This document shows, piece by piece, positions 54,614 through 64,000 of a stretch of 64,000 bases of DNA (the stretch's first letter is position 1; each line of letters opens with the position of its first letter). The DNA is taken from positions 8,122,001 to 8,186,000 of the forward strand of contig NZ_CP050975.2 in NCBI RefSeq assembly GCF_012273515.2. Reading direction: 5' to 3'. Source of the DNA: Streptomyces sp. RPA4-2. GTDB lineage: Bacteria > Actinomycetota > Actinomycetes > Streptomycetales > Streptomycetaceae. Position numbers and translations under genes: made by a program. The notes below the pieces were generated by a model that saw only the letters and a program-made list of their open reading frames with translations, ran no database searches and was not told the DNA's origin.

Positions 54614-56113
54614 CTACATGTGGACGGCGCGCACGGCGTCCGGGTCCTGCTCCTGGGCGCCACGGCGGTAGAGCAGGAAGGCGATGACCGCGCCCGCGGC
54701 GAAGAAGCCCGCCGACCACCAGAAGGCGGTGGTGTAGCTCTCGATCGTCGACTGCGCCCGGACCAGCTTGTTCGTGGCGTCCTTGCCGGCCAGGTAGCTG
54801 GTGGCGGCGCTCGCGGCGAGCGTGTTCAGCAGCGCGGTGCCGATCGAACCGCCCACCTGCTGCATCGTGTTGACCGTGGCGGAGGCGACGCCCGCGTCCT
54901 CGGCGGCGATCCCGCTGGTGGCCAGCGCCATGGCGGGCGGCATCACGATGCCGAGGCCCGCGCCGATCAGGAGCAGCTGCGGCAGCACGGCGGTCGAGAA
55001 GTCCGAGGCGACCCCGATACCGGTCAGCCAGGCCATGCCGGCGACGGCGATCGCGAAGCCCGCGGGGATGACGATCTTCGGGCCGATACGCGGCACCAGG
55101 ACGGTGGTGGACACCTGAGCCATGATCATCAGGGTGGCCATCATCGGCAGGAAGGCGACACCGGTCTTCGTCGGGCTGAAGCCCAGGTTCAGCTGCAGGT
55201 AGTAGGTGAGGAAGAGGAAGACACCGAACATGCCCGCACCGGTGATCAGCACGGTGACGAACGACGCGGCGCGGTCGCGGTCGAGCAGGACACGCATCGG
55301 CAGCAGCGGGTGCTCGGCACGGGTCTGCCACCAGGCGAAGCCGCTGATCAGGATGCCACCGGCGGCCAGGAAGCCCCAGGTCAGCGGCGAACTCCAGTCG
55401 TGCGTCTCGGCGTTGGAGAAGCCGTAGACCAGGGCGAAGAGGCCGGAGGAGACCAGCAGGGTGCCCGGCAGGTCGAGCCGGGAGTTCGCGGCGTCCCGGT
55501 GGTTGCTCAGCAGGACCCAGCCGCCGGCGAAGGCGACGACCGCGAAGACGAGGTTGACGAACAGTGTCCAGCGCCAGTCGAGCGCGTCGGTCAGCACACC
55601 ACCGAGCAGCAGTCCGACCGCGCCGCCGGCACCGGCGATCGCGCCGTAGACGCTGAAGGCCTTGGCGCGTTCCTTGGCGTCGGTGAACGTCGTGTTCAGC
55701 AGCGAGAGCGCGGCGGGGGCCAGCAGCGCACCGAAGACACCCTGCAGGGCACGCGCGGTGACCAGCATGCCGAAGCTGGTGGAGGCGCCGCCGAGTACGG
55801 AGGCGCCGGCGAATCCGGCGACACCGATGAGGAAGGCGGGCTTGCGCCCGAAGAGGTCGGCGATGCGTCCGCCGAGCAGCAGCAGGGAGGCGAAGGCCAG
55901 CGAGTACGCCGTGACGATCCACTGCCGGTTGCCGTCGGAGAAGCCGAGGTCCGCCTGCGCGGACGGCAGGGCGATGTTCACGATGGTGGCGTCGAGGACC
56001 ACCATCAGCTGCGCGATGCCGATGATCGCGAGGATCCACCACCGCCTCGAAGAGGGCGCGGACGAGGAGTCCACGGAGCCCTGGCGGGCACCTTCGGTCA
56101 GGGTCTGGGACAT
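54614..56113 (-). CDS. MFS drug-efflux transporter, DHA2 (14-TM) family
   Basis: 499 residues, starting MSQTLTEGARQGSVDSSS, then TM1 WWILAIIGIAQLMVVLDATIVNIALP. Motif A is GGRIADLFGRKPAFLIG and motif C lies in GAIAGAGGAVGLLLGGVL. A central extra TM pair separates the halves. The gene has its own promoter (-35 TTGCCG, 17 bp, -10 TACTGT) bracketed by CGAAAC-type palindromes, so a TetR-like repressor should control it; none is adjacent. Converges with the PAP2-kinase gene, 11 nt apart. Confidence 0.9.
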   Translation of the reverse strand: MSQTLTEGARQGSVDSSSAPSSRRWWILAIIGIAQLMVVLDATIVNIALPSAQADLGFSDGNRQWIVTAYSLAFASLLLLGGRIADLFGRKPAFLIGVAGFAGASVLGGASTSFGMLVTARALQGVFGALLAPAALSLLNTTFTDAKERAKAFSVYGAIAGAGGAVGLLLGGVLTDALDWRWTLFVNLVFAVVAFAGGWVLLSNHRDAANSRLDLPGTLLVSSGLFALVYGFSNAETHDWSSPLTWGFLAAGGILISGFAWWQTRAEHPLLPMRVLLDRDRAASFVTVLITGAGMFGVFLFLTYYLQLNLGFSPTKTGVAFLPMMATLMIMAQVSTTVLVPRIGPKIVIPAGFAIAVAGMAWLTGIGVASDFSTAVLPQLLLIGAGLGIVMPPAMALATSGIAAEDAGVASATVNTMQQVGGSIGTALLNTLAASAATSYLAGKDATNKLVRAQSTIESYTTAFWWSAGFFAAGAVIAFLLYRRGAQEQDPDAVRAVHM

Positions 56114-56158
56114 GGGAGAACCACTCCAGGGAAGTCGCTCAGGGTGACGGAGACGTAA

Positions 56159-56218
56159 ACGAAACTGTTTCGTACACATCGACAGTAGGGCACCGCCTGC
56201 GAAACGGCAACGTTTCGC
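56159..56218 (-). promoter_or_regulatory. Promoter of the DHA2 pump flanked by two palindromic operators
   Basis: -35 TTGCCG (56210-56205) and -10 TACTGT (56187-56182) with a 17-bp spacer on the minus strand. Operator 1 is 56159-56173 (ACGAAAC-T-GTTTCGT), downstream of the -10. Operator 2 is 56199-56218 (GCGAAACG-GCAA-CGTTTCGC), over the -35. Both share the half-site CGAAAC. A repressor bound at both would block the promoter fully. Confidence 0.65.
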
Positions 56219-56313: not shown

Positions 56314-56667
56314 ATGCCCGACGTCACTCCCTGGACCGCGCTAGCGGACCCGCACCGCCGCGCGATCGTCGCGCTGCTGCGGGAGCGCCCGCGCCCCGTC
56401 GGAGAGATCGTGGCGGCATGCGGACTGAGTCAGCCGAGCACCTCGAAGCACCTGCGGGTGCTGCGGGACGCGGGCCTGGTCCGGGTCAGCCAGGACGCGC
56501 AGCGCCGCGTCTACGCCCTGGATCCGGCCCCGATCGCCGCACTCGACGCCTGGCTCGCCCCGTACCGCACGCTGTGGAACGACAGCCTCGACACTCTCGG
56601 ACGCCGTCTGGACCAGGCGTCGGGGGAGCCGTCGGACGACCCCGAAGCCCCCTCCGCGAAGGACTGA
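56314..56667 (+). CDS. ArsR-family transcriptional regulator
   Basis: 117 residues. Winged helix-turn-helix WTALADPHRRAIVALLRERPRPVGEIVAACGLSQPSTSKHLRVLRDAGLVRVSQDAQRRVYAL. There is no Cys metal site of the ELCVCDL type, so it is one of the non-metal ArsR proteins that accompany SRPBCC genes. Six nt before the SRPBCC gene on the same strand. The promoter suggests leaderless translation and autoregulation. Confidence 0.88.
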   Translation: MPDVTPWTALADPHRRAIVALLRERPRPVGEIVAACGLSQPSTSKHLRVLRDAGLVRVSQDAQRRVYALDPAPIAALDAWLAPYRTLWNDSLDTLGRRLDQASGEPSDDPEAPSAKD

Positions 56668-56673
56668 GCCACC

Positions 56674-57213
56674 ATGTCGGCCGAACGCACCGCCCTCACC
56701 GGCACCTACCTCACCCTCGACGACGGCCGCCCCGCCGTCCGATTCAGCCGTACCTACGACCACCCCATCGCCCGCGTCTGGGAGTTCGTGACCGATCCGG
56801 AGGAGCTGGCCGGCTGGTTCCCGTCCCGCGCGGAGATCGAGCTGCGCCCCGGCGGCACCATCAGGTTCAGCGGCGACCCGAACATGTCCGACTCCACGGG
56901 CCGTGTCATCGCCGTGGACCCGCCCCGGCACCTCTCCTTCGACTGGGGCGGCGACGAGCTGCACTTCGACCTCGAAGCCCTCGAAGGGAAGCGCACACGA
57001 TTCACGCTCACCAACGTGCTCGCGGCCGAGGACACCGCCGCCCGCAACGGCGCCGGCTGGGAGGTGTGCCTCGCCGCCCTCGACGCCAAGGTCCTCGGCC
57101 GGCAGCACTCGCCGGGCCCGCACGCCGGTGCCGGAGCGCCCTGGCCGGAGATCTACCGCGCCTACCTCGCCGCCGGTGTCCCCTCCGGCGCCCAGGTGCC
57201 GGGGATGGACTGA
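56674..57213 (+). CDS. SRPBCC (AHSA1-like) ligand-binding domain protein
   Basis: 179 residues. Starts after a 20-residue leader with VRFSRTYDHPIARVWEFVTDPEELAGWFPSRAEIELRPGG, then MSDSTGRVIAVDPPRHLSFDWGGDELHFDLEAL and the long C-terminal helix GAGWEVCLAALDAKVLG. The Bet v1-like cavity binds hydrophobic ligands. Paired with the ArsR regulator, as often seen. Converges with the peptide-export operon, with only 4 nt between them, which fixes one border of that locus. Confidence 0.86.
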   Translation: MSAERTALTGTYLTLDDGRPAVRFSRTYDHPIARVWEFVTDPEELAGWFPSRAEIELRPGGTIRFSGDPNMSDSTGRVIAVDPPRHLSFDWGGDELHFDLEALEGKRTRFTLTNVLAAEDTAARNGAGWEVCLAALDAKVLGRQHSPGPHAGAGAPWPEIYRAYLAAGVPSGAQVPGMD

Positions 57214-57217
57214 CCCC

Positions 57218-60031
57218 TCACGCCAACTGCCGCCGCACCAACTCGTGGAGCCGCCCGCCGGTGTCCGCGAGCAGCCGGGCGGGAGGCCCCTGCTGGGCGA
57301 CGCGGCCGTCCTCCATCACGATCACCCGGTCCGCGTCCATGACCGTGGACAGCCGGTGCGCGATCACGACCCGGGTGGCGTTGAGCGCCTTGGTGCTCTC
57401 GATGACCGTGCGCTGGGTCTCGTTGTCCAGGGCGCTGGTCGCCTCGTCGAAGAAGAGGATGCGCGGGCGGCGGATCAGCGCCTGGGCGATCATCAGACGC
57501 TGGCGCTGGCCGCCCGAGACCGCCCCGCTGCCGGAGACGATCGTGTGCAGCCCCATCGGCATCCGCCTGATGTCCTCGGCCAGGCCCGCCATCTCGGCCG
57601 CCGCCATCGCCTCCTCGGGCGTGTACGGCTCGGTGCCGCAGATGCAGTCCAGGACGGAGCCGGTGAACGGCTGCGCGTGCTGGAGCACGACACCGCACTG
57701 ACGGCGTACGGCGGACTGGTCGAGCGCCGCCAGGTCCTGACCGTCGTACAGCACACTGCCGGAGACCGGCTTGTCGAAGCCGATGAGCAGCCGCAGCAGC
57801 GTGGACTTGCCGCAGCCGCTGGGGCCGACGATCGCCACGAACTCGCCCGCCCGGATGTCGAACGACACGTCGTCGAGCACGAGCGGGCCGTCGTCGGCGT
57901 ACCGGAACGAGAGCCTGCGGGCCTCGATGGCCCCGGACAGCACGCCGGGGCGTGTGCTCGCCACCCGGACCTCCGGGGTGGCGTCGAGCACCGGCCTGAT
58001 CTCCTCGAACATCGGCAGCGCGGCCGCCGCCGAGACGAAGGCGCCGGTCAGCTGGGTGACCGAGGTCAGCAGCATCGTCACCGAGGTGTTGAAGGTGAGG
58101 AAGTCCGCCGCCGACAGCGAGCCGCTCGCCGGGCCGGCGAGCAGCATGAACATCAGCAGGGAGCAGAGCGGCAGATACACCGCACCCAGCACCGTGGTGA
58201 GGTTCTTGATGCGGCCGACCCTCCGCTGGAGTTCACGGCTGCGCGCGAACTCGCCCGCCCAGGCGGCGTACGCGTAGTTCTCCGCCGCCGCGACCCGTAG
58301 TTTGGGCAGTCCGCGCAGGGTCTGGAACGCCTGGTTGTTCAGCTTGTTGCCGAGCACGACCAGCCGGCGCTGCCACCGCACCTGCCACAGGCCGAGCCCC
58401 AGGAACACGGCCGCGATGACGACGAGCATGGCGATCGCGGCCAGCGCCATGGGCACGCTGTACCAGAGCAGCAGTCCCAGGTTCATCGCGCCGACCGTGC
58501 CGGCCTGCGCGAGCGTGGGGCCGACGCCCGCGAGGAGACGGCGGATCGCGCTGATGCCCATGGCGGCACTGGCCAGTTCACCGGTCGAGCGCGAGGTGAA
58601 GAACTTCGTCGGCAGCCGCAGCAGCCGGTCCCACACGGCCGGTTGCAGCGTCGCCTCGATCCGCCCCTCCATCCGCAGCAGCGTCAGGTTCTGCAGCAGC
58701 ATGAACGCCGCCGACACCACACTGGTGATCATGATGGCCAGGCAGACCTGCACGATGAGTCCGTGCTGGGCCTTAGGCACGTACTCGCCGAGCACCTTGC
58801 CGGTCGCGATCGGCACCAGGGCGCCGATCGCCACCGTGACGAGACCGCTGACCGCCAGGTTGCGCAGATCGCCGCCGGTGCCCTGGAGACAGAACCGCGC
58901 CAGCCGCAACGGGCTCAGCCGGCGCTCGGGCAGCGGCCGGTAGAACATCACGGCCCGCGGCTCGAACTCGGCCGCGTTGGCCTTCTCGACCGGCGTCTCG
59001 CGCCCGGACGACGGCTGTACGGCCACATAGCCGCCGCGCCGCCACAGCAGCGCGACCGGGCTGCCCGACACCGCGCGCCGGCCCACCAGCGGACCGATGT
59101 CGTCCCGCCACCAGGGTCCGTCCAGGCGCACCGCGCGACTGCGGACGCGCGAGGCCAGCGCGATCCTCTCGACCGGGTCGAGCCGGTCGCTCTCCGTGCC
59201 GCTCTGCGCCGGTTCCGCGAGCGTGATCCCGGACGCGCGGGCGACCAGCGCGCAGGCCGCGTAGGTGGCGTCCGTGTCGGCCGGCGTAGGACGCTTCGAG
59301 GGCGTCCCGATGGATGCCAGCAGGGTCCGGTCGGCCTGGGCGCGGACGGCCTCGCCCGCCTTGATGCCGGCCGCCGTCCGGTCCTCGTGACGAGCCTCCA
59401 ACTGCTCGATCCAGCGGTCCAGCGTGGACAGCAGCCGGTACTGCTGGTCGACCATGCCCTGCCAGACACCCGAGTCCATCAGCAGGTCCGCGGCGGCCTC
59501 CGCGCCGTACAGCGAGCCGTACCGCACACTCCCCGGCGGCACCTGCATCCAGAAGACGTCGTCGTCCGTCGGCGCGGCCGCGTTCTCCGTGGCCGTGGGG
59601 GCCTGGAAGAGGATGGAGAGGCTGCGGCCGACGCCGAGGGCGAGGGCGTACTCCAGCGGGCTCGATGTCGGCGGCACGTACTGGGGGTTGCCGTACTCGT
59701 CGTAGGACCAGGTCTCGGTGGGGGCCGGCTGGTACAGCTCGCGCAGCACGATCCGGCGCACCGCGCAGTCCCGCAACGGCCGGCCGACCAGCGTGTGCTG
59801 GGGACCCGCGACCGGGCCGAGCAGCAGCGAGCCCGCTTCGAGACGGCCGAGGTGGTGCCAGTGGCCCTGCTGGGCGGCGTCCACCGCGAACAGGTCCAGG
59901 GTGCCCGCGGTGATCAGCCACAGCACCTGTGGCCCTTCCAGGTCGAGGCGGTTGAGCCCGGCGCAGTCGACCGGCGTGCCCATCGTGCCGAGCGCGCCGA
60001 GGACGACGTCGCCCTCGTGAACCGTCGTCAT
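57218..60031 (-). CDS. NHLP-type peptide-export ABC transporter, permease/ATPase subunit without peptidase
   Basis: 937 residues. A long N-terminal region (about 1-390) without C39 peptidase contains a cyclic-nucleotide-binding-like part near HHLGRLEAGSLLLGPVAGPQHTLVG. Six membrane helices follow (about 400-660), then the ATPase: IVGPSGCGKSTLLRLLIG, VSGGQRQRLMIAQALI and ILFFDEATSALD. ATG at 60031 is one base from the stop of the C39-ABC gene. In NHLP systems this protein pairs with the peptidase-containing ABC subunit. Last gene of the operon. Confidence 0.9.
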   Translation of the reverse strand: MTTVHEGDVVLGALGTMGTPVDCAGLNRLDLEGPQVLWLITAGTLDLFAVDAAQQGHWHHLGRLEAGSLLLGPVAGPQHTLVGRPLRDCAVRRIVLRELYQPAPTETWSYDEYGNPQYVPPTSSPLEYALALGVGRSLSILFQAPTATENAAAPTDDDVFWMQVPPGSVRYGSLYGAEAAADLLMDSGVWQGMVDQQYRLLSTLDRWIEQLEARHEDRTAAGIKAGEAVRAQADRTLLASIGTPSKRPTPADTDATYAACALVARASGITLAEPAQSGTESDRLDPVERIALASRVRSRAVRLDGPWWRDDIGPLVGRRAVSGSPVALLWRRGGYVAVQPSSGRETPVEKANAAEFEPRAVMFYRPLPERRLSPLRLARFCLQGTGGDLRNLAVSGLVTVAIGALVPIATGKVLGEYVPKAQHGLIVQVCLAIMITSVVSAAFMLLQNLTLLRMEGRIEATLQPAVWDRLLRLPTKFFTSRSTGELASAAMGISAIRRLLAGVGPTLAQAGTVGAMNLGLLLWYSVPMALAAIAMLVVIAAVFLGLGLWQVRWQRRLVVLGNKLNNQAFQTLRGLPKLRVAAAENYAYAAWAGEFARSRELQRRVGRIKNLTTVLGAVYLPLCSLLMFMLLAGPASGSLSAADFLTFNTSVTMLLTSVTQLTGAFVSAAAALPMFEEIRPVLDATPEVRVASTRPGVLSGAIEARRLSFRYADDGPLVLDDVSFDIRAGEFVAIVGPSGCGKSTLLRLLIGFDKPVSGSVLYDGQDLAALDQSAVRRQCGVVLQHAQPFTGSVLDCICGTEPYTPEEAMAAAEMAGLAEDIRRMPMGLHTIVSGSGAVSGGQRQRLMIAQALIRRPRILFFDEATSALDNETQRTVIESTKALNATRVVIAHRLSTVMDADRVIVMEDGRVAQQGPPARLLADTGGRLHELVRRQLA

Positions 60032-60032
60032 C

Positions 60033-62255
60033 TCATCGCTCCCTGACCAGCTCGGCGTACGGACCGCCGGCCGCCACCAGGGCGTCGTGCCGCCCGCGTT
60101 CCACGATCGTGCCGTGCTGGAGCACCACGATCTCGTCGCTGTCGCGCACGGTGCTGAGCCGGTGCGCGATCACCACACAGGCGCAGCCGCGCTTGCGCAG
60201 GTTGTCGATGACGGTCTGCTCGGTCTCCGCGTCCAGCGCGCTGGTCACCTCGTCGAGGACCAGGATGCTGGGCCTGCGCACCAACGCCCGCGCGATCTCC
60301 AGGCGTTGGCGCTGACCGCCGGAGAAGTTGCGGCCGTCCTGCTCGACCCGGCTGTGGATGCCACCGGGACGCCGCACCACGACGTCGTACAGGGCCGCGT
60401 CCCGCAGCGCCGTGACGACGGCGTCGTCCGTGATCGAGGGGTCCCACAACGCCACGTTGTCGCGGACCGTGCCCTCGAAGAGGAAGACGTCCTGGTCGAC
60501 GAAGGAGACGGAGGCCGCGAGCGCGCCGCGCGGGATGTCCTCGAGCCGCTGACCGTCGATGCGGATCGTGCCCTCCCAAGGGGTGTACAGGCCCGAAATC
60601 AGCCGGGACACCGTGGACTTGCCGCTTCCCGAGCCGCCCACCAGCGCCACCTGCCGACCCGGGCCGACGGTCAGCGAGAAGCCGGTGAGCAGTGGCTTGT
60701 CGAGCGGGCTGTAGCCGAACGTGATGTTCTCCAGCTCGACATGGCCGTGCAGCCTGCGGGTGGAGTCGCCGGTGCCGGAGCGGGTGTACAGCGGGTCGGC
60801 CTGGAAGTTCTCGACGTCCTTGAGGCGTGCCACGTCGGCGGCGAAGTCCTGGATGCGGCCCGCGACGCCGTTGAGCCGGGTGAGCGGCGCGGTGAATCGG
60901 GTGACGAGCGCCTGGAAGGCGACGAGCAGACCGACCGAGATGTGTCCCTCCATCGCCCGCAGGCCGCCGATCCAGAGGATCAGTGCGCTGTTGAGGGTGG
61001 CGAGCGTCGGCGCGACCACTCCCAGCCAGGCGCTCGGCACACCGAGGCGCTGCTGTTCCTCCAGCGTGGTGGCGTGCTGCCCGGCCCACTTGCGGAAGTA
61101 GCCGTCCTCGCCGCCGGTCGCCTTCATGGTCTCGATCAACTGCAGCCCGGTGTAGGCCGTGTTGGTGAGCCGGGCGCTGTCCGCGCGGAGTTTCGCCGTA
61201 CGGGTCGCGCGCAGCCGGATGACCACCCGCATCGCGACCACGTTGAGCAGCGCGACACCGATACCGACCGCCGTGAGCTGCGGGTCGTAGGTGTAGAGCA
61301 GGACGGCGTAGAGCACCACGACGACCGCGTCCACGCCCGCCGCCGCGAGGTCGCGGGCCAGGGTCTCGGCCACCGCGTCGTTCGACTGGAGCCGCTGCAC
61401 CAGGTCGGCCGGACTGCGCTGGGAGAAGAACGTGACCGGCAGCCGCAGCAGATGGCGCAGGAAGCGTGCGCTGCTGAGCGTCGAGGAGATGATCCGGCCG
61501 TGCAGCAGGTTCGCCTGCTGGAGCCAGGTCAGCAGCACGGTCAGCAGGACGCAGGCGCCCATCGACGCGAAGAGCACGCCGAGCAGCGAGGTCTGACCAC
61601 CTATCAGATAGGTGTCGATGTACGTCCTGCTGAGCGCGGGCACCGCCGCGCCGACGGCGACCAGCAGCAGGCTGGCCAGCACGGCGGCGGGCATCGTGCC
61701 CGACGTCCCGCGCAGCCGGGCCGGCATGGCACCGAGGATCCCGGGCCTGCGGCCGCCCGCGCGGAAGTCGGGGCCCGGCTCCATGACCAGCACCACGCCG
61801 GTGAAGCTGGTGTCGAAGTCCTCCATCGGCACGAAACGGCGGCCCTTGCCGGGGTCGTTGATGTGCACCCCGCGCCGTCCGAGACGGCGGCCCATTCCAT
61901 CGTAGACGACGTAGTGGTTGAACTCCCAGAACAGGATCGCGGGCGCCTGCACCTCGGCGAGCGCCGCCGTGTCCATCTGCATGCCCTTGGCCGTGAGGCC
62001 GTAACCGCGCGCCGCCTTGAGGAGGTTGCTGGCACGCGAGCCGTCCCGGGAGACGCCGCAGGCGATGCGCAGCTCTTCGAGGGGGATGTACCGGCCGTGG
62101 TGGCCGAGCACCATGGCGAGGGAGGCCGCGCCGCACTCCACGGCCTCCATCTGGAGGACCGTCGGCGTGCGGACGGTCTTGCGGGTGCTCTTGGGCACCG
62201 TGCGCTTCGGCGGTGCGGCGCGACGTCTGCCCCGGGTGTCCTGCGCGGTGGTCAC
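60033..62255 (-). CDS. NHLP-type peptide-export ABC transporter with C39 peptidase domain
   Basis: 740 residues. The N-terminal C39 double-glycine peptidase is intact: catalytic Cys in VECGAASLAMVLGHHG, His in EFNHYVVYDG, Asp in HINDPGKG. A membrane domain and an ATPase follow (LVGGSGSGKSTVSRLISG, FSGGQRQRLEIARALV, ILVLDEVTSALD). GTG at 62255 overlaps the HlyD stop by four bases. It should cut the precursor after its Gly-Gly and export the core. Confidence 0.93.
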   Translation of the reverse strand: MTTAQDTRGRRRAAPPKRTVPKSTRKTVRTPTVLQMEAVECGAASLAMVLGHHGRYIPLEELRIACGVSRDGSRASNLLKAARGYGLTAKGMQMDTAALAEVQAPAILFWEFNHYVVYDGMGRRLGRRGVHINDPGKGRRFVPMEDFDTSFTGVVLVMEPGPDFRAGGRRPGILGAMPARLRGTSGTMPAAVLASLLLVAVGAAVPALSRTYIDTYLIGGQTSLLGVLFASMGACVLLTVLLTWLQQANLLHGRIISSTLSSARFLRHLLRLPVTFFSQRSPADLVQRLQSNDAVAETLARDLAAAGVDAVVVVLYAVLLYTYDPQLTAVGIGVALLNVVAMRVVIRLRATRTAKLRADSARLTNTAYTGLQLIETMKATGGEDGYFRKWAGQHATTLEEQQRLGVPSAWLGVVAPTLATLNSALILWIGGLRAMEGHISVGLLVAFQALVTRFTAPLTRLNGVAGRIQDFAADVARLKDVENFQADPLYTRSGTGDSTRRLHGHVELENITFGYSPLDKPLLTGFSLTVGPGRQVALVGGSGSGKSTVSRLISGLYTPWEGTIRIDGQRLEDIPRGALAASVSFVDQDVFLFEGTVRDNVALWDPSITDDAVVTALRDAALYDVVVRRPGGIHSRVEQDGRNFSGGQRQRLEIARALVRRPSILVLDEVTSALDAETEQTVIDNLRKRGCACVVIAHRLSTVRDSDEIVVLQHGTIVERGRHDALVAAGGPYAELVRER

Positions 62256-63061
62256 GGCAGCAGCCAATCGACGGGACGCTGATCGGCCAGCCGGATCGAA
62301 CCCGTGGCCAGGGTCATGGAGGTCAGCGGGTACGGAGGCCCGTCCACCGAGGACCACTTGAGGCCGCTCTTCGTACGGGACGAACGGTCGAGGGAGACCA
62401 GGACGGCCACCGGCCTGCCCTTCTTGGTGAACTGCTCGCCGAGCTGGCTGTCGCCGAGCGAGGAAGTGATCTGCTGCTGGGTCTGCACACTGCGGCCGAC
62501 CGCCTTCACATGACCGCGCAGCACCCCGTACCGCTGGGTCGGCACCGACTGGACGGTGAGGTCGACGGCGGCGTCCGCGGGGATGGTGGAGGCGCTCTCG
62601 GCGGGCACGTACACCGTCGCGTAGAGCGGATCGCCGGCGTGCGCGACCTTCTCGACCGCGGCGACGTCCGCGCCGGTGGAGATGATGGCTCCGATGGTCG
62701 CGGCGAGCGCCGTGACACGGCCCGCGGCCACGGTACGGACGACCGATGTCCCGCCCTGTGCCGTACGGACCTTCAGCACCGGGGCGTCGGCCGCGAGCCG
62801 ATCGCCCTCCTTGGCGAGGACCGCGGTGACCTGGCCGGCGACGGGGCTCTGCAGGACGTAACTGCCCTGCGCGTGCGTGAGGACGGCGGGGGCACCGACC
62901 GTCGAGGCCACCGTGCCCGTCACGGCCCAGACCGACGCGGCCGCCATGACGACCACCGTCACCGAGAGGACGAGCCAGCCCTGGGGGCGGGCGAAGCGCA
63001 CCGGCAGGTCGAGTTCTTCGGCCGACTGCAGCTTGGCGAGGGCCTGTTGGCGGAACTGCAC
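62252..63061 (-). CDS. NHLP-type secretion accessory protein (HlyD-like membrane fusion protein)
   Basis: 269 residues. One N-terminal membrane helix (GWLVLSVTVVVMAAASVWAV) precedes a periplasmic-type adaptor with lipoyl/barrel-sandwich parts (GSYVLQSPVAGQVTAVLAKEGDRL, VVRTVAAGRVTALAATIGAIISTG). GTG at 63061 has GAGGGAAG 4 nt upstream. It is the first transporter gene after the precursor and a 13-bp hairpin, and it is translationally coupled to the C39-ABC gene. In a Gram-positive cell it would bridge the exporter to the cell wall. Confidence 0.88.
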   Translation of the reverse strand: MQFRQQALAKLQSAEELDLPVRFARPQGWLVLSVTVVVMAAASVWAVTGTVASTVGAPAVLTHAQGSYVLQSPVAGQVTAVLAKEGDRLAADAPVLKVRTAQGGTSVVRTVAAGRVTALAATIGAIISTGADVAAVEKVAHAGDPLYATVYVPAESASTIPADAAVDLTVQSVPTQRYGVLRGHVKAVGRSVQTQQQITSSLGDSQLGEQFTKKGRPVAVLVSLDRSSRTKSGLKWSSVDGPPYPLTSMTLATGSIRLADQRPVDWLLP

Positions 63062-63101
63062 GGGACTTCCCTCACCTGTCGAAGAGCTCTACGGCATCCG
63101 A

Positions 63102-63134
63102 GAGTCCCGGAACCGGGGAGTGGTTCCGGGACTC
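63102..63134 (-). terminator. Strong hairpin between precursor and transporter genes (attenuator/processing site)
   Basis: Perfect 13-bp stem GAGTCCCGGAACC (63102-63114 with 63122-63134) and a 7-nt loop, 17 nt past the precursor stop. It lacks a U tract, so partial read-through to the transporter genes is expected. This would give far more precursor mRNA than exporter mRNA. Confidence 0.65.
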
Positions 63135-63151
63135 AGCGGGATGAGGCGCGG

Positions 63152-63367
63152 TCAGAGACCGGCGACCAGGCCGGTGACCGGAGCGGTGTTCAGGCCGGTC
63201 ACACCCTCGACGGTGCCGATGGCCGTGCCCACGATGCCCGAAACCGGGGCAACGCCGTCGACCAGGCCGGTGACGGTGCCGACGGCGTTCAGCGACAGGC
63301 CGCCGGAGACGTTGTCGAGGTCCGCGTCCGAGATCTCGGCGGTGGCAACCTGGGGGGTGGAGTTCAT
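63152..63367 (-). CDS. Double-glycine leader peptide precursor with Cys-free glycine-zipper core
   Basis: 71 residues. The leader (1-23) starts MNSTPQVATAEISDADL and ends DNVSGG, a classic double-glycine cleavage site for C39 peptidases. The predicted core of 48 residues is rich in Gly, Val, Thr and Leu and contains no Cys, Trp, Tyr, Phe, Lys or Arg. It has five GxxxG motifs (GTVTG, GLVDG, GTAIG, GTVEG, GLVAG) and two echoing APVSGIVG/APVTGLVAG segments. With no Cys it cannot be a lanthipeptide, despite a leader like those often labelled type A2 lantipeptide. ATG at 63367 has AAGGGAAG upstream; ATG 63397 would add ten residues. Likely a membrane-active or self-assembling secreted peptide. Confidence 0.85.
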   Translation of the reverse strand: MNSTPQVATAEISDADLDNVSGGLSLNAVGTVTGLVDGVAPVSGIVGTAIGTVEGVTGLNTAPVTGLVAGL

Positions 63368-63845
63368 GGGGGAACTTCCCTTCGTATGGATATTCATAAG
63401 GGGGGAGCGGCCCCCTCTGGGGACAGATGACGGCCGCGACCGCGGGGGTGCGGACCCCGTTTCCGGGAGCCGTGCGGCTCCCGTCTCCGGAAGCTTGCCG
63501 CGACCTCCGCGGTGCACGGATCAAAGCACGGTCGCGAGGCGCGTATCCAATCAACCAGGGCTCTCACCTGGGAACTTGAGCGCGACTTCGGCCCAACCGT
63601 GCAGGCGTGCGCACGTCATTGCGGCCACTTCTTCACATGCTGCACGGCATTGTTTCGGCGCCGCCCTTGCCGCTGGGCGGCGCAAGGGGACAGTCCGGTC
63701 CCAATGGTGCACGGGGGGCGTGCGACTGTGCAGATCCGTCGCGCGCCGTGACGTGCCTGCGCATTCGATGTGCAGATTCGCTGAAGCAAGGATTCCGGCC
63801 CTGTTGGCGGACGGAGTGTCACCGGCCGTTCGCGGACGGTGGCGT
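63368..63845 (-). promoter_or_regulatory. 480-bp leader/promoter region of the peptide operon
   Basis: Holds two hairpins: 63464-63483 (9-bp stem CGGGAGCCG, 2-nt centre), about 95 nt upstream of the precursor start, and 63658-63683 (9-bp stem GCGCCGCCC, 8-nt loop), probably the terminator of the thioesterase gene. The less GC-rich TATGGATATTCATA near 63385-63398 sits just upstream of the start. No second precursor or modification gene is found. Confidence 0.45.
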
Positions 63846-64000
63846 TCAGCCCAGCAGGGCGTACACCGTGCTCGCGCGCGCCGCGACGTCCCGGGAGTTC
63901 CCCGCGGTCATCGTGATGTCGGCGAAGGCCATACGGCGGCCGAGCTTGGTGAGAACCGCCTCGATCAGCACGTCCGCGTCCGTGACCGCGCGCTGGAAGC
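63846..64000 (-). CDS. Hotdog-fold thioesterase (PaaI-like), C-terminal part, truncated by the window edge
   Basis: The last 50 codons are visible (FQRAVTDADVLIEAVLTKLG, RRMAFADITMTAGNSRDVAARASTVYALLG, then TGA). The pattern of an early basic/acidic strand followed by RRMAFADITM and a final AxxxSTVYAL strand is typical of PaaI/hotdog acyl-CoA thioesterases. Catalytic residues lie outside. It forms the right border of the peptide-export locus and appears unrelated to it. Confidence 0.7.
   Translation of the reverse strand, partial: FQRAVTDADVLIEAVLTKLGRRMAFADITMTAGNSRDVAARASTVYALLG

Follow-up and report, generated by a model that had tools for sequence, protein, structure and literature searches.

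Gene content and conservation of the locus

In this study, we examine a peptide-export locus of Streptomyces sp. RPA4-2, lying in a 64,000-nucleotide stretch of contig NZ_CP050975.2 (positions 8,122,001 to 8,186,000 of the forward strand), hereafter the window, whose coordinates are used throughout. Four genes on the minus strand form a unit at the end of the window: a 71-residue precursor peptide with a 23-residue leader and a 48-residue core (63152..63367), a HlyD-type membrane-fusion protein of 269 residues (62252..63061), a C39-peptidase ABC exporter with a GTG start (60033..62255) and a peptidase-less ABC partner of 937 residues, ABC2 (57218..60031). The C39-ABC and HlyD genes overlap by 4 nucleotides, and a single nucleotide separates ABC2 from C39-ABC. 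A prior inspection of the letters and open reading frames (the sequence-only reading) had described just this arrangement, which our analysis confirms. Both ABC proteins exceed the cut-offs of their families, C39-ABC with 1013.9 bits against TIGR03796 (cut-off 853.3; the protein taken with one extra upstream codon) and ABC2 with 898.7 bits against TIGR03797 (cut-off 709.4), whereas the HlyD protein matches HlyD_3 (3.7e-8) and is related to the NHLP family TIGR03794 at a sub-threshold 138.1 bits (cut-off 156.2). The peptidase domain of C39-ABC contains the motifs QMEAVECGA...HYVV...DP, a pattern shared by 78 of the 80 named loci (78 examined). With its leader ending in GG beside an intact C39 exporter, the precursor may be classed as a putative double-glycine C39 peptide.

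The borders of the unit are likewise as the sequence-only reading had drawn them. By domain search, an AHSA1/SRPBCC gene (56674..57213) and a 4HBT thioesterase gene with its stop at 63846 are unrelated flanks. The former makes up a pair with an ArsR-type regulator gene (the two together at 56314-57213, plus strand) beside a major facilitator superfamily (MFS) transporter gene (54614-56179, minus strand), an ordinary locus flank.

In 77 of the 80 named loci, each of the four genes is present at close to its full length, and contig ends interrupt the remaining three loci; we prefer this count to the raw 80/80 for four genes, which is inflated by cross-matches between ABC proteins. The precursor, whose possible absence from close relatives the sequence-only reading had raised, is kept in these loci. 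Searches with the precursor returned 692 proteins at E<=10, and the 120 listed are 83-96% identical to it, many of them, in Streptomyces, carrying the name 'type A2 lantipeptide'. These relatives, together with the retention of all four genes in 77 loci, indicate that the small precursor gene is real. No curated Pfam or NCBIfam family reached its cut-off with the precursor, and no NHase- or Nif11-like leader model matched it.

The only genes common to all 23 loci compared are the precursor and the three exporter genes, in line with the earlier claim that the locus holds no modification enzyme. Nothing beyond these four recurs among open reading frames of at least 80 residues, and the small frames (30-130 residues) that recur nearby are either the precursor or overlap the region just upstream of it (among the 15 most widely shared listed). 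No immunity-like gene recurs in either size class at these 23 loci, and one specific to a given locus could exist.

A shared leader, scattered peptide genes and a promoter-like box

The leader (63299..63367, minus strand) ends in NVSGG and matches the leader profile at E 1.7e-15. The next-best match in the RPA4-2 genome has E 0.165; this genome has a single leader gene, and every main locus fetched contains one precursor match. Across 199 sampled Streptomyces genomes, the profile matches 145 at E<=0.05, and 66 of these have two to five matches. Of the 227 matches in total, up to about 10 could be chance at this per-genome threshold. ABC2 is over its cut-off in 145 genomes as well. Both leader and ABC2 are present in 143 genomes, and 52 have neither; two genomes, which contain sub-cut-off ABC2 pieces, have the leader only, and two have ABC2 only (all figures being among the matches listed). 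This co-occurrence is what a shared exporter predicts, though related genomes do not count as independent. The two genomes with ABC2 only (G117 and G185), as well as G037, in which a 627-bit ABC2 relative occurs without a leader match, possibly export different cargos or have lost the peptide gene.

Twenty further leader matches were fetched, of which two belong to main loci and 18 are unlinked, having no HlyD gene and only generic ABC matches (<=59 bits) within the 16 to 19 kilobases around them. These unlinked genes, present in many relatives, join the same leader to other cores, and their cores differ widely among themselves. In one group of seven, the peptide is kept and the neighbours largely differ, except in L055 and L058, which have common flanks. 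In a second group (L061:9325-9519, L065:8846-9073 and L069:8833-9054), each core contains one Cys and the genes nearby are alike, including an Amidase_2 gene (scanned in L061). A third (L063:9392-9613, L068:8542-8763 and L072:8980-9210) contains His and Phe, ends in TTSV or TTML and has much of its neighbourhood in common, with a metallo-beta-lactamase-fold gene adjoining the peptide in L063, where it was scanned. Eight neighbours of unlinked genes were scanned in all (an amidase, a metallo-beta-lactamase fold, two helix-turn-helix regulators, an MFS transporter and three proteins matching no family), and no modification enzyme was found among them. The presence of at least two leader matches in 66 of the 145 leader-positive genomes suggests that, in relatives, one exporter may serve several peptides, some of them in trans.

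A promoter-like box, TTGG-N17-GTGCTTTGATCC, lies upstream of the precursor gene (63518..63550, minus strand), and the 9.86-Mb genome has no second exact copy of it. When the spacer may be 17 or 18, the exact pattern occurs 78 times in the 199 Streptomyces genomes, at most once per genome, and each of the 78 sites precedes a leader-peptide gene by 69-151 nucleotides, whereas the reversed control gave none. A position weight matrix further detects a weaker box upstream of the unlinked genes (18/18 at P<=0.024, 16/18 at P<=0.008), and 17 of 20 distant main-type genes scored in this way reach P<=0.012; these P values are conservative, as the random windows may include true sites. A wider regulon in RPA4-2 was considered and rejected: a pattern one base shorter, with up to two mismatches allowed, yields one other site (at two mismatches) against two in the reversed control.

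Elements of the transcript

Between the promoter-like box and the start codon lies a 5' untranslated region (UTR; 63368-63425, minus strand), which contains CCCCAGAGGGGG-CCGCT-CCCCCC followed by the ribosome-binding site GAAGGGAAG (63375..63383); for this site, GAAGGGANG is found in 78 of the 80 named loci. Within the 5' UTR, the element TGTCCCCAGAGGGGGCCGCTCCCCC (63401..63425, minus strand) is unique in the genome at up to three mismatches (reversed control, 0) and recurs within three mismatches in 56/80 named loci. Among the unlinked genes, the element is faintly visible in four of 18, at the same distance from the start and with 6 to 8 of 25 positions mismatched (shuffled best, 7). The C-run of the 5' UTR could pair with an upstream G-run or with the ribosome-binding site, which suggests translational control.

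In the gap between the precursor and HlyD genes, a hairpin with a 13-bp stem (63102..63134, minus strand) is kept in aligned loci. Eleven of its 13 pairs are retained in all 27 aligned loci (26 of the named loci plus the window), and two of the retained pairs show compensatory changes, GC to AU in 8/27 and UA to CG in 2/27. We rely on this alignment, since 'hairpin in 80/80 loci' reflects only low folding energy in GC-rich DNA. The hairpin is a probable partial terminator or processing site and would probably set a high ratio of peptide to exporter. Known RNA families gave two matches in 62900-63900, both far below gathering scores.

An anionic, Cys-free core

The 48-residue core (63155..63298, minus strand) is without Cys, aromatic residues, Lys, Arg or His, as the sequence-only reading had noted, and has a net charge of -2. 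It is rich in Val, Gly, Thr and Leu, with seven Thr, two Ser and a grand average of hydropathy of 1.15. Its best 19-residue hydropathy, 1.50, is below the usual membrane cut-off of 1.6. We compared it with other main-type precursors, picked by leader pattern with identical sequences dropped; the resulting set of 69 includes the window, and adjoining exporter genes were checked for 23. Cys is found in 0/69 of these cores (and in 0/80 of the overlapping set of named loci), and Lys or Arg in one. All 69 are net negative, as are all 18 unlinked cores, giving 87/87 with charges from -1 to -4. The earlier expectation of an acidic, apparently unmodified product agrees with this charge rule and with the absence of an enzyme from the locus.

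The core also contains an imperfect two-fold repeat, in which AVGTVTGLVDGV..APVSGIV aligns with AIGTVEG.VTGLNTAPVTGLV (self-alignment score 48 against 23.6 for 1000 shuffles, p=0.001). Comparison of 45 Streptomyces sequences yields dN/dS values of 0.26 in the leader and 0.54 in the core (first half 0.64, second half 0.38). The precursor is thus under purifying selection, which is looser on the core than on the leader.

The five GxxxG motifs that had been counted in the core are indeed there, at precursor residues 30, 34, 47, 51 and 66. They exceed the 1.76 expected from composition-preserving shuffles (P=0.009, uncorrected for the 12 spacings tried), yet two of the five are gone in most close relatives, and we reject a glycine zipper as the defining feature. 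Among 112 distinct relatives (from the 120 best-scoring matches, 115 of them of 71 residues, a set biased to close ones), Gly is present at residue 47 in 17 and at residue 66 in 49; distant relatives retain fewer motifs than close ones.

Indications of the fold disagree. The composition, with 40% Val/Ile/Thr and 21% Gly, is poor for helices, whereas an AlphaFold model from a 47-sequence alignment places helices at residues 18-38, 45-57 and 62-70 and contains no strands. The structure prediction that the sequence-only reading had called for thus gave helices, but at low confidence (mean pLDDT 57.5, pTM 0.20). Since the model is helical, packing of helices within the core is possible, and we lowered our confidence in fibril-like assembly from an even balance to slightly below it, and raised a pore from unlikely to a little less so. 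In the Protein Data Bank (PDB), the search for a solved relative turned up nothing beyond caveolae proteins and a Nif11 protein, all of them below threshold (E 0.026 to 0.81); the Nif11 match is a weak one of the leader end (E 0.81). A match to the amyloid chaperone FapA, at 17.8 bits against a cut-off of 100, was put down to chance or composition.

The lantipeptide label

On the evidence of these sequences, the label 'type A2 lantipeptide' is wrong, in keeping with the earlier view that it does not fit. A class II lanthipeptide is rejected because the main-type cores have no Cys and the complete RPA4-2 genome has no LanM domain (PF13575). Moreover, LanM occurs in 34/145 leader-positive and 21/54 leader-negative genomes, so that 111 of the 145 leader-positive genomes are without it; a distant lanthionine synthetase, which the sequence-only reading had considered as a counter-case, is not seen in these genomes as far as LanM is concerned. 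Two LanC-like loci do occur in RPA4-2, megabases away (G000:C1:4080241-4081119 and 1181826-1182644). In a 2026 publication, the name 'type A2 lantipeptide' is read as evidence of antimicrobial potential (PMC13047742); the protein concerned may belong to this family.

A proposed regulated exporter of surface peptides

We favour, while holding it slightly more doubtful than secure, the explanation that the locus encodes a regulated export system whose anionic peptides, left unmodified, act at the hyphal surface or in the matrix, by analogy with the EbfG/PteB system of cyanobacteria. An envelope or secretion signal would switch on the promoter, which, being used almost only for this leader-peptide family, would drive an abundant precursor transcript with the peptide in excess, and the hairpin after the precursor gene would let part of the transcription through to the exporter genes. 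The C39 domain would then remove the leader by cutting after the double glycine, and a complex of HlyD, C39-ABC and ABC2 would export the core without modifying it. Outside the cell, the repeated core, rich in Val, Thr and Gly, would most likely assemble on or between hyphae and affect their aggregation; the products of the unlinked genes in many relatives probably leave through this exporter as well.

In favour of this explanation are the two ABC families over their cut-offs, the intact peptidase motif, the co-occurrence of leader and ABC2, the uniformly negative cores, the internal repeat and the placement of every exact box before a leader gene. For the matching Streptomyces coelicolor locus, SCO0753-SCO0756, available text reports strong induction by a two-component system (PMC6629963), higher SCO0753 in an aor1 mutant (PMC5733086) and higher SCO0756 in a polyprenol-phosphate-mannose (ppm1) mutant (PMC5882110).

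Several observations weigh against this explanation. The internal repeat reaches p<0.05 in 16/24 other main-type cores but in just 4/18 unlinked ones, the core is under looser selection than the leader, and the sole structure model, strandless and of low confidence, does not favour beta fibrils. None of the 18 unlinked genes has the exact form of the box, and three of the 20 distant main-type genes score only P between 0.045 and 0.10 for the box. RPA4-2 itself has one leader gene, so the idea of a shared exporter rests on relatives. The S. coelicolor data are transcript levels, export, cleavage and a phenotype of the peptide itself being predictions, and in the accessible part of a copper-related mutant study SCO0756 is slightly down (PMC6414726). 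Finally, 54/199 sampled Streptomyces have no leader, and the system is therefore dispensable.

Among other explanations, an unmodified membrane-active bacteriocin that kills neighbours through helical pores built on glycine motifs is unlikely. Its C39/NHLP-type exporter, its hydrophobic core with GxxxG above shuffles, the faster evolution of the core than of the leader and the helices of the low-confidence model would all suit such a peptide. Against it stand 87/87 net negative cores, the helix-poor composition, the loss of two GxxxG motifs in most close relatives, a single precursor per main locus where a pair would be expected, and the lack of a recurring immunity-like gene among the frames compared. 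The pore-forming glycine zipper of the sequence-only reading is accordingly weak, residues 47 and 66 being Gly in a minority of close relatives and the hydropathy falling under the membrane cut-off. Given a repeated anionic core and loci at which no immunity gene recurs, a peptide that assembles outside the cell is a somewhat better match than one that forms pores.

Still less likely is a signalling peptide, in which the exported core would be sensed by the producer or its kin and coordinate growth form or envelope stress. At 48 residues, the very hydrophobic core exceeds the usual length of a pheromone, genes resembling receptors do not recur at the locus, and the unlinked cores differ widely; promoter specificity, several different cores behind one leader and, in the available text of PMC6629963, strong two-component induction in S. 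coelicolor speak for it. A RiPP (ribosomally synthesized and post-translationally modified peptide) altered in trans by an unlinked enzyme, through lanthionine formation, dehydration or other chemistry, is improbable: the public name, the seven Thr and two Ser and the remote LanC-like loci favour it, and Ser/Thr dehydration alone or other chemistry would be compatible with the Cys and LanM results, but Cys is missing from 69/69 cores, LanM from RPA4-2 and 111/145 leader-positive genomes, and a modification enzyme from the eight neighbours scanned, three of them without a family.

Distribution and significance

In a class-wide sample, 21/246 genomes are positive, all of them Streptomyces, and 94 other genera are negative. 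Within the family, matches at E<=0.01 come from 9/17 genera, and some of these are weak. One copy lies on a 1.16-Mb plasmid record of S. chartreusis.

Extending the hyphal-surface explanation to the family is a more tentative step. Streptomycetaceae may possess a dedicated peptide secretome, in which one C39/HlyD exporter, with a promoter type of its own that has almost no other use, handles one to five scattered small anionic peptides sharing only leader and promoter. Such a set would equip multicellular hyphae at their surface or in the matrix, would be coupled to the sensing of the envelope and would stand apart from bacteriocins, lanthipeptides, chaplins and SapB. The public label, which invites an antimicrobial reading, is misleading; if the product is an unmodified surface or matrix peptide, the leader system of 145/199 Streptomyces would be structural or developmental, not an antibiotic cluster. 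The promoter box and shared leader offer a simple means to list candidate cargos, and the box could serve as a reporter for the driving signal. The system may furthermore bear on pellet versus dispersed growth among Streptomyces, which is relevant to fermentation.

Comparison with known systems

The locus itself is not new, since a matching one in S. coelicolor is in the literature. SCO0753-SCO0756 has the same gene order (peptide, HlyD and two ABC genes) with a Cys-free hydrophobic peptide and is conserved in many Streptomyces; available text of the 2019 publication had pointed out the absence of cysteines and probable export (PMC6629963). For this locus, also known as a 'bacteriocin' or lantibiotic-like cluster, a transcription start at 796,462 is reported (PMC4895711). 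From gene order, length and description, we infer that the window precursor is the orthologue of SCO0753, whose length of 77 residues agrees with translation starting six codons farther upstream, the situation in the relatives P0010 and P0019. Promoter specificity, unlinked peptides, hairpin and charge rule are not described for SCO0753-SCO0756 in the accessible part of PMC6629963, and the open-licence PubMed Central literature covered yielded no paper on the unlinked peptides or the promoter box. What is new here is the label error, the charge rule, the unlinked leader genes, the co-occurrence of leader and exporter, the promoter box and the compensatory changes in the hairpin. The sequence-only reading had not mentioned the unlinked genes, the box, the hairpin, the internal repeat or the SCO0753-SCO0756 literature.

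The exporter resembles those of NHLP/Nif11-type systems (TIGR03794/03796/03797), for which available text links leader and exporter by phylogenetic profile, as done here (PMC2887384). Both ABC families are over cut-off in our locus too, which differs in a HlyD protein under the TIGR03794 cut-off, a precursor with no NHLP/Nif11 leader match and the lack of a modification enzyme at the locus.

Class IIb two-peptide bacteriocins combine a double-glycine leader, a C39 exporter and GxxxG motifs, all of which the window locus matches; it differs from them in having a single precursor at each main locus, an anionic core and no immunity gene that recurs. SapB and the chaplins are small hydrophobic surface peptides of Streptomyces hyphae, the chaplins using Sec signals and SapB being a lanthionine peptide. 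The window core, Cys-free and behind a double-glycine leader, possibly shares their surface role (SapB is also discussed in a part of PMC6629963).

The closest analogy is with the EbfG proteins of Synechococcus elongatus, whose efficient secretion needs the peptidase Cys of PteB and which enable biofilm, according to the available text (PMC4997328). Like EbfG1-4 with PteB, the Streptomyces system pairs small double-glycine proteins with a C39 transporter that may serve several cargos, the biofilm role being that of EbfG. Amyloid formation by EbfG1-3 was seen in an E. coli test, as described in the accessible part of PMC9981879, whereas the window core is modelled, at low confidence, as helical. 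The two systems belong to different phyla, and their likeness lies in the type of export.

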